Origin: Planctomycetaceae bacterium
Lineage (GTDB): Bacteria; Planctomycetota; Planctomycetia; Planctomycetales; Planctomycetaceae
Assembly: GCA_002726205.1 (NCBI GenBank)
Contig: PBSL01000036.1
Span: 62,001-126,000, forward strand
Direction: 5' to 3'
Length of the DNA stretch: 64,000 nucleotides
Made by a program: the position numbers and the translations under genes. A model generated the notes under the pieces. The model was given only the letters and a program-made list of their open reading frames with translations. It ran no database searches and was not told where the DNA came from. Every line of letters starts with the position of its first letter. Positions within the stretch are counted from its first letter, which is position 1. Below, piece after piece: positions 32,816-37,326 of this stretch.

Positions 32816-34627
32816 TCAGTCCCGGTCCCAGGGCAGCCGCATCGAGGGGGCGTTGACGTAACGTTTCATTGCCAACACAAGCCGTCCCCCGGCTCCGGGA
32901 GCCAGTCGCACCGTCACCGTCTGGGAATCGGAGGCGGTCTTGGTGTTGCCGACGCTGACGCCATGGAACTGGTGCTCGGCGTAACCACCGGCCTGGATGA
33001 TGAGAGTCTTTGGCCGGAGTTGGTCGGTGTTGACCAGTGTCAGGGTCACCGATGTGTTCGAGAGTCTCTCGACGAGTGCCGCGACACCATCGGGAATGCC
33101 GGCGCGTCGTGTCACGGGGTCGAAGTAGCGGACGCGAGCGTGCAGCACCTGGCCACGGTGGCCGGGGTGAACGCCTCCCAGCATCAATTGAATCAGCGAA
33201 CTCACGCTGGCTGGATTGAAACGCATCGGGTCATCGGCCAGGCGGGTATCGGGGGTTGTCGTGTCGGCACGCAGGCCGGCGACACGCTGGCGGACGCGTT
33301 CGAGATCTCCTCGCAGGGCGGATTCCGGGAAACCGGTATTCTTGCCCTCGAGAAACCTCGTCCAGCCATTTTCACTGAACAGTTTCCGATCCGAGTCCTT
33401 CATCGAGTGATACCAGGTCTCGTAGCCGCCGGCGGTGTAGGGGGAGGGAGAAAACGCATACCAGCCCTTGTCGCCGAACATCCGGGGCGTCATCCGTCGC
33501 CCGTCGATGACCTTCGACTGGGCATTGACCTGCTTGATCTGCTGCCGCCAGATATCGAGGTACTTGTCGTCGCCGGTCAGCATGAAGGCGTTGGTGAACC
33601 CGGTGTGGCCGAGGTAGTGCGTGTTTCGGTGGGCGATGGCTCCGGTTTGCGGAACGGTGACCGAGAAGGCCCAGCCGTAGACCCCCCCGTACCATTTCCC
33701 ATCGGTCGCGCCGCCGATCTTGCCATCGAGTCCGATGTTGGTCGGGATGATGCCGTTGTTGTCGAGGGTCCGCTGCCGCCAGGCATCGACGTATTCGAGC
33801 AGCCATTTCCGGTACTTCGGCAGGCCGGTCAGCATGTAGGCATTCAGGGCCAGTGAGGTGGCGCCCATGTTCTGAGGATGGTCACCGATAATGTCATTGT
33901 AGTCCTTGAAGTGGTCGAGCATCTCCTGGTAGCTGCGTTCGCCGTGCCCCAGTGAGAATCGATTGGCCACTTCGATCCGATCTCCGGCCCAGTCCAGTCC
34001 CGTGGCCTTGCGGAGCAGCGGACCACGGCTGCCGTTGAAGAGGCTCTTGATGATCTTGTGTTTCGAGTCGTAGTTGGGCGCACCGGGATCTTCGTTGAGA
34101 TAGAAGCCGGCGAAGCGGCGGACCCGGTGGCCGAAGGCGATGTTGTTGGGATCAGAGAGTCCCTGCAGGTTGAAGACTGTCAGACCCTCGCCGTTGTGCA
34201 CCCAGTCGAACGTGACCGGGAACTCCTTGTAGTACATCCCGTCACGGGCAAAAGGGACCTCGCTGGTCTTGGCGAGCGTGAACTGCCGGAGATGGCCTTC
34301 CCAGGCCTGCTTGTACAGGTTCAGTACATCATCGTGAGCACCGAGGGCGTGAAGGATCGGCCAGTCGTTGCAGTTTTCGATCGCATCATCCGGGCCGTCA
34401 TCGCCGCCCCAGCGTTCCACGCACAGGAGGAACCCCCGTTGGTCGAAGTACTTGGTGAAGAATTCGCGGCAGGCGGCCTCGTTGGCACGCAGCAGGTCAC
34501 GCTCGAGCAGTGCCCAGGCCGGTGGCGACATGGTGTCGTTGAGCCGAACGACGGGAGAATCGGCGGCGACCAGGAGAAGCGGGGCTGCGGTCAGCAGGCA
34601 GAGAACGATCGGCAGACGGCGGGACAT
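32816..34627 (-). CDS. Large secreted protein of unknown function
   Basis: The ATG at 34627 gives 603 residues with a clean signal peptide (MSRRLPIVLCLLTAAPLLLVAA). The body is rich in Trp, Tyr and His and in Gly-Asp loops. Segments such as CVERWGGDDGPDDAIENCNDW, LYKQAWEGHLRQFT, YYKEFPVTFDWVHNGEGL and MLTGLPKYRKWLLEYVDAWRQR repeat a helical hairpin pattern that fits an alpha/alpha-toroid as in glycoside hydrolases and polysaccharide lyases. The C-terminal 100 residues look like a beta-sandwich. No catalytic motif was identified. A polysaccharide-active role is an inference only. It lies upstream of the CapD-like gene on the same strand. Confidence 0.75.
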   Translation of the reverse strand: MSRRLPIVLCLLTAAPLLLVAADSPVVRLNDTMSPPAWALLERDLLRANEAACREFFTKYFDQRGFLLCVERWGGDDGPDDAIENCNDWPILHALGAHDDVLNLYKQAWEGHLRQFTLAKTSEVPFARDGMYYKEFPVTFDWVHNGEGLTVFNLQGLSDPNNIAFGHRVRRFAGFYLNEDPGAPNYDSKHKIIKSLFNGSRGPLLRKATGLDWAGDRIEVANRFSLGHGERSYQEMLDHFKDYNDIIGDHPQNMGATSLALNAYMLTGLPKYRKWLLEYVDAWRQRTLDNNGIIPTNIGLDGKIGGATDGKWYGGVYGWAFSVTVPQTGAIAHRNTHYLGHTGFTNAFMLTGDDKYLDIWRQQIKQVNAQSKVIDGRRMTPRMFGDKGWYAFSPSPYTAGGYETWYHSMKDSDRKLFSENGWTRFLEGKNTGFPESALRGDLERVRQRVAGLRADTTTPDTRLADDPMRFNPASVSSLIQLMLGGVHPGHRGQVLHARVRYFDPVTRRAGIPDGVAALVERLSNTSVTLTLVNTDQLRPKTLIIQAGGYAEHQFHGVSVGNTKTASDSQTVTVRLAPGAGGRLVLAMKRYVNAPSMRLPWDRD

Positions 34628-34741
34628 CGTGGGCCTCCGGGCTCGACTTGGGAGGCCACATCGTATCGCCACGACCGCACGATCGCGAGTCGCAGAGAAT
34701 CGTTGTCCGGGACCTGCCCCGACAGCCGGGCCGCGGGCGGG

Positions 34742-34888
34742 TCAGGGAGCCATGTCCCAACCGTAGCGGTTCAGTTCCAGCACGAGCAGGCTGATGCCGG
34801 CCACAAGTGCCGCGACCGAGACAAACAACAGGCCGACAAAGACGTCGGGGCTGGGACTGGGTCCAGATCTAGAGCTTCGAGGTGACAT
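34742..34888 (-). CDS. 48-residue single-pass membrane peptide, overlapping start
   Basis: The minus strand from ATG at 34888 to TGA at 34742 encodes 48 residues: a Ser/Pro/Arg-rich head of 14, then one strong transmembrane helix (VFVGLLFVSVAALVAGISLL), then a short polar tail ending LNRYGWDMAP. The start lies inside the last codons of the upstream coiled-coil gene, overlapping it by 20 bp in another frame, so translation is probably coupled. The hydrophobic block with charged borders and the coherent stop are hard to explain by chance, but no homologue can be checked here. It may be a small subunit that works with the two preceding membrane-anchored coiled-coil proteins. Confidence 0.72.
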   Translation of the reverse strand: MSPRSSRSGPSPSPDVFVGLLFVSVAALVAGISLLVLELNRYGWDMAP

Positions 34889-35735
34889 TGTCGCCCTTTG
34901 CAATCACGCCGTTCTTTGCCTTCTCTCTGATGGTGCCAACGGCCTTGTCAGGGAAGACATGGATGATACGAACTCTGCCGAGATACTTTGTCTGTCGTCG
35001 CTTGGCGATTCCGGGACGCCACACGGTCAGTAACTGTCCTTCCTTGATTCCGTCGTCACCGCCGATAGAGAGTTCGATGTAGAGGATACGATTCCCGATG
35101 CCGTAGCGGGCCGAGAGTACCTTGCCGGAAATCGGCGGGGGCGGTGTGATATCCTTGCTGGGCAAGGCGCCCAGCCCACCGCCCTTGCGGCGGGCCAACG
35201 CCCGGGTGGTCTTCAATTCATCGAGAACCACCAGGTTGCGTTGCTCCTGTGCCCCGAGCTTCAATTCCAACGTGAATCTATCGTCCTCGAGGCTCCGGTT
35301 CTTCTTGACCAGTTCGACCTGCTTCTCGTGCAGAGCCTTGTTGATCTCACGTTGCTCAAGCGCCTCGTCCAGGCGAAACTGAGACTCGGTGATTTCGAGT
35401 TTCGCCACGGCCCGTTGTACACCTTCCTCGGTCTTCTTGAGCTCGTAGTCCTGCTTCAGGTTGTCAGTGGACGTCTTCAACTGCTCGTAGTTGCTTTTCC
35501 ACTTCTTCGACTCGCCACTGAGACTTGCGATCTGGTCGGTCGAGTCGGTCTTGAGCTTGTTGAAGTCCTTGCGAGTGGCGGCGTGCGACTCCTTTTCGGA
35601 ACTGAGTTCTTGCTGGACATCGTCACGGGCCGTCTTCCAGTTCTGTTCGACAGAGAACACCGCGCCGGCGAACGTCATGAACAGCAGGCTGAGGACGAGT
35701 TGAACGACGACCAGGATTTTCCCGACAAAGGTCAT
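34869..35735 (-). CDS. MreC-like membrane-anchored coiled-coil protein
   Basis: This 288-residue protein has one N-terminal transmembrane helix at about residues 6-28 (ILVVVQLVLSLLFMTFAGAVF). A heptad-rich coiled coil runs at about 30-185, with Lys, Glu, Gln and Leu dominating. The C-terminal beta region at about 200-285 contains ISGKVLSARYGIGNRILYIEL, SIGGDDGIKEGQLLTVW, YLGRVRIIHVFPDKAVGTI and IAKGDNV. The order TM, coiled coil, small beta domain, and the G-x-D-D-G-I-x-x-G motif, are those of MreC, the elongasome scaffold; sequence identity cannot be measured here. It is the second gene of a run below mraZ, 52 bp after the first coiled-coil gene, and it overlaps the 48-residue peptide gene. 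Confidence 0.75.
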   Translation of the reverse strand: MTFVGKILVVVQLVLSLLFMTFAGAVFSVEQNWKTARDDVQQELSSEKESHAATRKDFNKLKTDSTDQIASLSGESKKWKSNYEQLKTSTDNLKQDYELKKTEEGVQRAVAKLEITESQFRLDEALEQREINKALHEKQVELVKKNRSLEDDRFTLELKLGAQEQRNLVVLDELKTTRALARRKGGGLGALPSKDITPPPPISGKVLSARYGIGNRILYIELSIGGDDGIKEGQLLTVWRPGIAKRRQTKYLGRVRIIHVFPDKAVGTIREKAKNGVIAKGDNVTSKL

Positions 35736-35787: not shown

Positions 35788-36516
35788 TTACTTGGATTTC
35801 CGCTGGGGAGCCGGCTTGGCACCCGGCGTTGCGGGCACGGCCTTGTCATCTTCGTACTGGCCACGGGCTCCCGACTTGACGAGTTGTTGTTGACGGCGTT
35901 TCAGGCGACTGACCACCCCGCTGGTCCGCACGAGCAGGTTTCTCAGTCGCTTTTGTTGTTCCTTGATCTGAAAGAGATCGATCTGGATCTCTTCAAGTTG
36001 TGACACCAGCCGATAAATCTCCTCACGACGTGATTCATTGGTCGTGAGTGTTTTCTGCGTCCCCTGAACAAGCTCGATGTTCTTCTTCGAGATGGCGTCG
36101 ATTTTCTTGCGAATTGCAGCCAGTTCTACGTCAAGTTTGTCGGATCGGGCCGTCATCGCCGCCTGGTCGATCTGCAGTGGTTTCTCCCAGAAGGCCTTTT
36201 CCTTGTTGAGCTGCTCGGTCTTTGCCTGCAGATCCTTGATCTGATTGTCTTGCTGAGCGACCATGTCGGCGCGGGCTTTGGTGACCACCGCTGCCAGGCT
36301 CTTGGTTCCCGACGCCAACGCGCGATCCCCTCGTCGTGCCTTGACGCTGTAAGTGGTTGTTTCTCCCACGGCCTTGTCGAAAACGTAGTCTCCGGTCAAC
36401 TCGTCCCTCTCGACCCGCCAGTTGACCCCGCCCATCGTCGTCAGCGAGGCGACGCCGAGGAAGGCGAGGCTGCCAACGAGCAAAGCGACACAGAGAATCT
36501 TACTGAGTTTCGTCAT
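35788..36516 (-). CDS. Membrane-anchored coiled-coil protein
   Basis: This 242-residue protein has an N-terminal transmembrane helix (ILCVALLVGSLAFLGVASL) and a short region with beta-like sequence up to residue 70. A long coiled coil at about 85-215 is rich in Gln, Lys, Glu, Leu and Ile (MVAQQDNQIKDLQAKTEQLN, REEIYRLVSQLEEIQIDLF). The tail is basic and Pro/Ala-rich. No family was recognised. Its own sigma70-like promoter lies just upstream. It stands between mraZ and the MreC-like gene and shares topology with the latter, suggesting that the two could form a membrane-attached heteromer. Confidence 0.8.
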   Translation of the reverse strand: MTKLSKILCVALLVGSLAFLGVASLTTMGGVNWRVERDELTGDYVFDKAVGETTTYSVKARRGDRALASGTKSLAAVVTKARADMVAQQDNQIKDLQAKTEQLNKEKAFWEKPLQIDQAAMTARSDKLDVELAAIRKKIDAISKKNIELVQGTQKTLTTNESRREEIYRLVSQLEEIQIDLFQIKEQQKRLRNLLVRTSGVVSRLKRRQQQLVKSGARGQYEDDKAVPATPGAKPAPQRKSK

Positions 36517-36555: not shown

Positions 36556-36585
36556 AGTATAGGCTCGGAATTTTCGATCGGTCAA
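36556..36585 (-). promoter_or_regulatory. Sigma70-type promoter of the coiled-coil operon
   Basis: On the minus strand, TTGACC (36580-36585) and TATACT (36556-36561) are spaced by 18 bp; transcription would start about 33 nt before the ATG at 36516. This is one of the best promoter matches in the window. Confidence 0.65.
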
Positions 36586-36843: not shown

Positions 36844-37326
36844 TCAGTCGGTGAGTTCGATGAACAGCGGCCCGAATTCGGGCATGTCCTCACGAAGCAC
36901 GTCGACCCAGGACTCGAGGTTCCAGATCTCGACGCAGATCGCCGCACCGACCAACATGACCTCCTGGTTGGGACGAACGCCGAGAAATTCGCGGAATTCG
37001 TCGGGAACCAGCAAGCGGGACCGGTTGGCCAATCGAACGGTCTGGTGTCGGGTCGAGAGCAGGCGTCCCAGCCGCTGCACGTCCCCGTAGCGTCGCTCCA
37101 TCCGTCCCGCTTCGATCTTCTGACGAATCAGGTTCACACCGGCTTCAATCCGTTCCCGCCAGTCCGAGGCCCGCCACAAACTCACACACCCGTAACGCTC
37201 CTTGGAGACAATCGTCTCGCCGTTGGCGTCGGTGACTGCCTCGGCCATCTCCGAAGGCAATGACACCCGGTAGCGTTCATCGACGGTCCGTCGAATCTCA
37301 CCGGTGATGAACGTCGATGTCGCCAT
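36844..37326 (-). CDS. mraZ: MraZ-type transcriptional regulator
   Basis: This 160-residue protein has two AbrB/SpoVT-like halves. The first holds [17 protein letters not shown] (about residues 15-31), matching the DxxxR motif. The second holds [19 protein letters not shown] (about 98-116), where the motif's Asp is replaced by Asn. The following [22 protein letters not shown] is characteristic of MraZ. In most bacteria MraZ represses the division and cell wall (dcw) cluster that it heads. Here rsmH, ftsL, ftsI and mur genes are absent, and the nearest downstream genes encode membrane coiled-coil proteins. No clear ribosome binding site precedes the ATG. The leader predicted from the upstream promoter is about 264 nt. 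Confidence 0.9.

Follow-up and report, generated by a model that had tools for sequence, protein, structure and literature searches.

The minus strand of the stretch of DNA analysed here (64,000 nt from a member of the Planctomycetaceae, in the following called the window) carries at positions 34742–34888 a gene of 48 codons plus stop, which we named pep48. It is a real protein gene under purifying selection, with conserved frame and sequence, and it codes for a predicted single-helix membrane protein. Its start overlaps the end of a larger gene, cc288 (34869–35735, minus strand), and the arrangement of a small gene directly after cc288 recurs throughout the class and beyond. Since pep48 lies beside cc288 across planctomycetes, and often next to cell-wall-shaping genes, its probable role is that of a small, fixed partner during envelope growth. 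On balance we favour the reading that pep48 is translated into a small bitopic protein which constantly accompanies cc288, and that both probably belong to one inner-membrane complex serving envelope growth.

The frame begins with an ATG at 34888, its last codon ends at 34745 and the stop follows at 34742–34744. The predicted product of 48 residues, MSPRSSRSGPSPSPDVFVGLLFVSVAALVAGISLLVLELNRYGWDMAP, has a head rich in Ser, Pro and Arg followed by a hydrophobic segment, just as described in the original prediction, which named no strand. The best 19 consecutive residues (18–36) reach a mean Kyte-Doolittle value of 2.65, indicating a clear transmembrane helix, and the corresponding value is at least 2.33 in all 46 pep48 sequences compared. 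According to hydropathy and alignment the helix and its C-terminal edge occupy residues 16–38 (34775–34843, minus strand) with the near-invariant Leu20, Leu21 and Leu35. A short C-terminal tail, residues 39–48 (34745–34774, minus strand), contains the near-invariant Leu39 and Tyr42, the latter being invariant among the 41 aligned sequences. The pep48 alignment (A1) omits two loci, L046 and L048, because of a wrong automatic pick; both do carry pep48 beside cc288. With 48 amino acids and one transmembrane helix pep48 belongs among the small bitopic proteins (fewer than about 60 residues, one helix). The charge bias for its topology is weak, with on average 2.3 Lys plus Arg and 2.0 Asp plus Glu before the helix and 0.7 and 1.4, respectively, after it.

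By length alone such an open reading frame is unremarkable, as there are 60 of at least 40 amino acids within 7 kb here. It stands above chance because frame, sequence and position are conserved in relatives, and this also bears out the earlier suggestion of a hidden gene for a small membrane protein, which is found to keep its place. The accompanying remark that common ORF cut-offs would miss so short a frame is fair in part only: the usual minimum of gene finders is lower, ORFs of 90 nt and up being commonly taken. Thus, pep48 may well be annotated already as a hypothetical protein.

A first search among 59 relatives gave a pep48 match in 52 of them at E ≤ 1 and, within the same-family subset, in 35 of 36 genomes, the weakest at 8.5e-4. 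When 16 disjoint pairs of close relatives were pooled and the overlap codons removed, pN/pS was 0.12 for pep48 and 0.23 for cc288; between the window and its nearest relative (L118) dN/dS was 0.18. The differences in pep48 fall on codon positions 1, 2 and 3 in the numbers 40, 19 and 180, that is, 180 of 239 are at the third position. Not a single stop occurs in the coding frame among 1252 codons compared, whereas each of the other five frames holds between 17 and 71. One reverse frame (rc1) has a low ratio as well, 0.20, yet it holds 44 stops; because of these stops, and since it mirrors the wobble position, we read this ratio as an artefact. Stops or frameshifts in relatives which keep the upstream gene would have spoken against a gene; they were looked for and none was found. 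The check for the same position and a bias towards synonymous substitutions in relatives was clearly positive, both by the pN/pS of pep48 and by its location downstream of cc288 in 40 out of 40 genomes.

These 40 class genomes had been chosen by cc288 alone, from those with listed cc288 coordinates, and none of them had trained the pep48 profile; the matching frame lies directly downstream on the same strand in each, with E from 9e-26 to 3e-4. The search for cc288 itself succeeded in 291 of 297 class genomes. Searching 118 class genomes with the pep48 profile gave a match at E ≤ 1e-4 in 107, and the 11 genomes missed all have cc288 followed immediately by a pep48-like helix frame. Likewise, cc288 is just upstream of pep48 in 46 out of 46 named loci, which were picked by pep48. 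These are the confirmed ones among 171 matches to patterns restricted to Planctomycetaceae, and they include Thalassoglobus neptunius, Gimesia, Planctomicrobium and many Planctomycetaceae MAGs. Among L038–L049 there are 11 class loci with cc288, three of which (L041, L043, L047) had trained the pep48 profile. The small gene is always beside that of its larger partner (40 of 40 and 11 of 11), and a few genomes carry additional copies that stand alone. Such paralogues, with no cc288 in the stretch examined, were seen in L042 (4507–4818), L050 (267–434) and L033 (2000–2143), each on the minus strand; the neighbours in L042 and L050 were not informative. Two pep48 matches each occur in several genomes of one class family (f7) and in one genome of f100.

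Over the phylum, cc288 was detected in 132 of 149 genomes at E ≤ 1e-10, mostly at full length. Outside the class we considered 40 genomes from the upper part of the cc288 match list, i.e. those with the best cc288 scores. The class profile of pep48 matches at the right place in 15 of these 40 at E < 0.1, and a small single-helix ORF follows cc288 in 37 of the 40 compared to 16 of 458 control genes (frame of 30–150 residues, hydropathy above 2.0, start between −60 and +300 nt from the cc288 stop, with the cc288 frame taken from coordinates). In an hhalign comparison the class and phylum sets of pep48 match with 96.7% probability, whereas reversed sequences, in which composition and hydrophobic block are kept, reach 12.3%. 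Since the two sets match far above this control, the small protein after cc288 is, as judged from the alignments, very likely one family across Planctomycetota. No pep48 was found in the 11 genomes without detected cc288 (six of the class set and five of the phylum set; G018 was left out of this count since the cc288 search did not cover it), and part of this absence may be due to assembly gaps because several of these genomes are drafts; an empty result of this search means little by itself. In one family (f48), five near-complete genomes (G106, G127, G144, G162, G177) yielded neither cc288 at E ≤ 1e-10 nor pep48.

The 288-residue partner had been called MreC-like. An AlphaFold2 model based on 33 sequences (pLDDT 87.9, pTM 0.38) places the N-terminal transmembrane segment of cc288 in a continuous helix of residues 3–183, followed by a beta domain at residues 203–285, which has a pLDDT of 82 when modelled alone. 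The general plan of MreC is indeed shared: transmembrane anchor, coiled coil and beta domain, the latter two presumably at the periplasmic side, and a gene beside mreB in many planctomycetes. However, the helix of cc288, with 180 residues, is far longer, the protein of the window has no match to the MreC family profile PF04085 up to E 0.1, and MreC is present as a separate gene. PF04085 is also not among the 25 families listed for 33 cc288 members, a list that leaves out three more families with one member each. hhalign against planctomycete MreC gave a probability of 13%, although its E-value was 0.0021 over 65 beta-domain columns. A true PF04085 MreC sits beside MreB at another place (C38) in the same genome. 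By profile we therefore rejected the identity of cc288 with MreC, and likewise the possibility that it is the only MreC candidate of this genome.

Fold searches with the whole cc288 model and with the beta domain alone gave nothing at E ≤ 0.001, and the top matches to cc288 among solved structures were only generic coiled coils such as myosin and tropomyosin. MreC was absent from the fold matches listed, from which nothing follows. The closest fold to the beta domain is the C-terminal domain of FlgT (8z5n, Z 10.6, rmsd 3.1 over 89; 3w1e, Z 9.6, rmsd 5.4 over 89), with the unrelated N-terminal barrels of F1-ATPase (Z 9.5) within about 1 Z of it. The FlgT family PF16538 stays below its cut-off for cc288, with a weak sequence match in two of 33 members (best E 0.0057). 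Because many small barrels resemble it, the beta domain gives no function; it is only safe to say that a common small barrel is predicted. In the same-family operon cc288 is preceded by cc242 (35788–36516, minus strand), by cross matches a coiled-coil paralogue of cc288, which occupies this position in 45 of the 46 named loci. It was not seen beside cc288 in most class families other than that of the window. A possible operon promoter, sigma-70-like at 10 of 12 positions, is located 40 nt before the start codon of cc242 (36556–36585, minus strand); two such elements were found in the region where 0.5 would be expected.

The gene neighbourhood gives a hint to the function. Taking 64 of the class genomes with listed cc288 coordinates, MreB was detected at E ≤ 1e-40 in 40, and in 13 of these 40 mreB starts on the same strand no more than 650 nt downstream of cc288. 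The link is broken in the genome of the window, where the top MreB match and the sole PF04085 MreC lie together on another contig. Outside the class, in 20 loci all taken from the 40 genomes with the best cc288 scores, mreB follows the cc288-pep48 pair at a distance of at most 1.5 kb in 16; within 6 kb, MreC matches in 10 and PBP2 in 11 of the same loci. Upstream of cc288 there is in 10 of them a gene which we take to be lnt; it was named from its sequence, and its model was built on two members. MreB, MreC and PBP2 are firmly identified by Pfam in class examples. In some loci (L235, L236, L241, L245) mreC and PBP2 are separated by an ORF of about 160 residues that would suit mreD by position only. 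Because mreB, mreC, PBP2 and lnt neighbour the pair outside the class, we infer from gene order that lnt-cc288-pep48-mreB-mreC-PBP2 is the ancestral arrangement across the phylum.

On account of this ancestral order the presumed complex would most likely serve envelope growth. pep48 would have its N-terminus in the cytoplasm, span the membrane with one helix and expose a short tail with the conserved Tyr at the periplasmic face. cc288 would send its long helix and the C-terminal beta domain into the periplasm, with pep48 packed beside its membrane anchor in one inner-membrane complex. The genes for this complex would once have been, and in much of the phylum would still be, co-located with those of MreB and PBP2, in some loci with a putative mreD, as judged by its position, between mreC and PBP2.

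An alternative that we take seriously, although we consider it unlikely, is that cc288 and pep48 are a general envelope scaffold or a trans-envelope tether, for example to peptidoglycan or to lipoproteins, which shares the ancestral operon with mreB and lnt by chance. The class genomes in which cc288 is kept with no MreB detected at E ≤ 1e-40 (24 of the 64, in families that also keep pep48) fit well to this, and because of them the function of the pair would not be tied to MreB alone. The position of lnt upstream of cc288 in half of the 20 loci outside the class points in the same direction, and a 180-residue helix with a beta domain is suited to span the periplasm. However, the same-strand linkage to mreB is found phylum-wide and exceeds what neutral drift should leave. 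The envelope-growth complex may also be taken further: cc288 and pep48 could be an ancient, phylum-defining growth module that came from the elongasome operon and has outlived MreB. In lineages without MreB, which like all the others lack FtsZ, it would organise the sites of envelope insertion in budding cells, and pep48 would be a membrane subunit that cannot be spared. To this far-reaching version we give rather little credence.

pep48 might also be a regulator of cc288, that is, an inhibitor, a stabiliser or a protease adaptor, instead of a structural subunit. Small membrane proteins often act as regulators of larger partners, and wherever a class genome with cc288 was examined for pep48, the small gene adjoins that of the presumed target. 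Nevertheless, the constant pairing, together with a constraint that is stronger than on cc288 itself, suits a core subunit better, and a search for a separate promoter between cc288 and pep48 found none. A purely regulatory role appears improbable to us.

The overlap of the pep48 start with the end of cc288 had been given as 20 bp, which is exact: the cc288 stop codon ends at 34869, so that 34869–34888 (minus strand) is shared. A Shine-Dalgarno-like AAAGGG lies inside the cc288 codons (34894–34899, minus strand) and ends 5 nt before the pep48 ATG. Of 62 same-family genomes scored by eye, 49 (30 of 34 and 19 of 28; G013, which lacks cc288, and G028 were not scored) have the two genes overlapping by 20–26 nt, mostly by 20. 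In the selection analysis the class of 26 is inflated, since several starts of the Gimesia type were set automatically to −26 (GTG) although −20 (ATG) would serve as well. An SD-like motif precedes 36 of 40 overlapping starts, against a background of 18% within cc288 at the same phase, but conserved Gly-Asp codons of cc288 contribute to it. The other 13 of the 62 genomes have gaps, ranging from some tens to about 230 nt, in place of the overlap; gapped pep48 genes mostly begin with MA- and not MS-, and some go with a longer cc288 tail. The coupled translation proposed earlier is therefore plausible in the family of the window, where the ribosome would start pep48 from the SD-like motif in the last cc288 codons. 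As a requirement it did not hold up, because relatives with gaps dispense with it, and elsewhere it is clearly unneeded.

The overlapping start with its SD-like motif, and mreB as the next gene downstream in many genomes, might suggest that the frame matters only in cis, coupling or tuning the translation of downstream genes while the peptide itself has no job. We hold this for very improbable: amino acid constraint extends along the helix and the tail, and the frame is kept where the overlap has been lost and also where mreB is not next. A chance open frame conserved through the overlap, in which the first seven codons of pep48 share bases with cc288, is ruled out by selection, by the frame controls and by the presence of pep48 in the 11 profile-missed genomes, as the 41 codons outside the overlap carry constraint and the 13 gapped relatives keep the protein.

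Two known systems are worth comparing with the small partner of cc288. Like MreD, pep48 is encoded as a membrane protein in the same operon. MreD is larger and multi-spanning, whereas pep48 has one helix, and the ORF in the place of mreD exists besides the cc288-pep48 pair. The likeness to CydX, a small membrane subunit encoded in an operon, is one of layout: pep48 also has fewer than 60 residues and one helix, and its gene immediately follows the one for the larger partner. The partner is a different one. In a Pfam and NCBIfam profile search the pep48 of the window matched no family, and the best matches over 41 members were scattered ones with E 0.0024 and 0.0025; cc288 and cc242 of the window do not reach a Pfam or NCBIfam cut-off either. 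A published description of the pair was not found in the literature searched. In terms of sequence, pep48 is thus a new, undescribed protein family, and its setting is of a known kind. Within the family of the window it has fewer than 60 codons in most members, and genes of this sort go unnamed in annotation.

Planctomycetes manage growth and division without FtsZ, and a screen for their essential genes left many phylum-specific proteins unexplained (PMC10632474). For P. limnophila that study reports that mreB and other wall genes are non-essential and counts 135 essential hypothetical proteins (PMC10632474). With its occurrence in nearly every planctomycete examined, and before mreB in much of the phylum, the cc288-pep48 pair is a concrete candidate for the missing growth machinery.

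Some further genes around the operon may be mentioned. Right after pep48, the window codes at 32816–34672 (minus strand) for a predicted protein of 618 residues with a signal-like start, which has no Pfam or NCBIfam match up to E 0.1 and is not found at the corresponding place in relatives. Just upstream of the operon lies a MraZ-like gene (36844–37326, minus strand; PF02381, E 7.8e-10), and three relatives (L059, L069, L070) have a mraZ homologue several kb upstream. In about a dozen relatives, L053, L059, L060, L065, L069 and L070 among them, genes for a STAS-domain protein and an ATPase stand divergently before cc242; by eye, this ATPase resembles those of type II secretion systems or pili.
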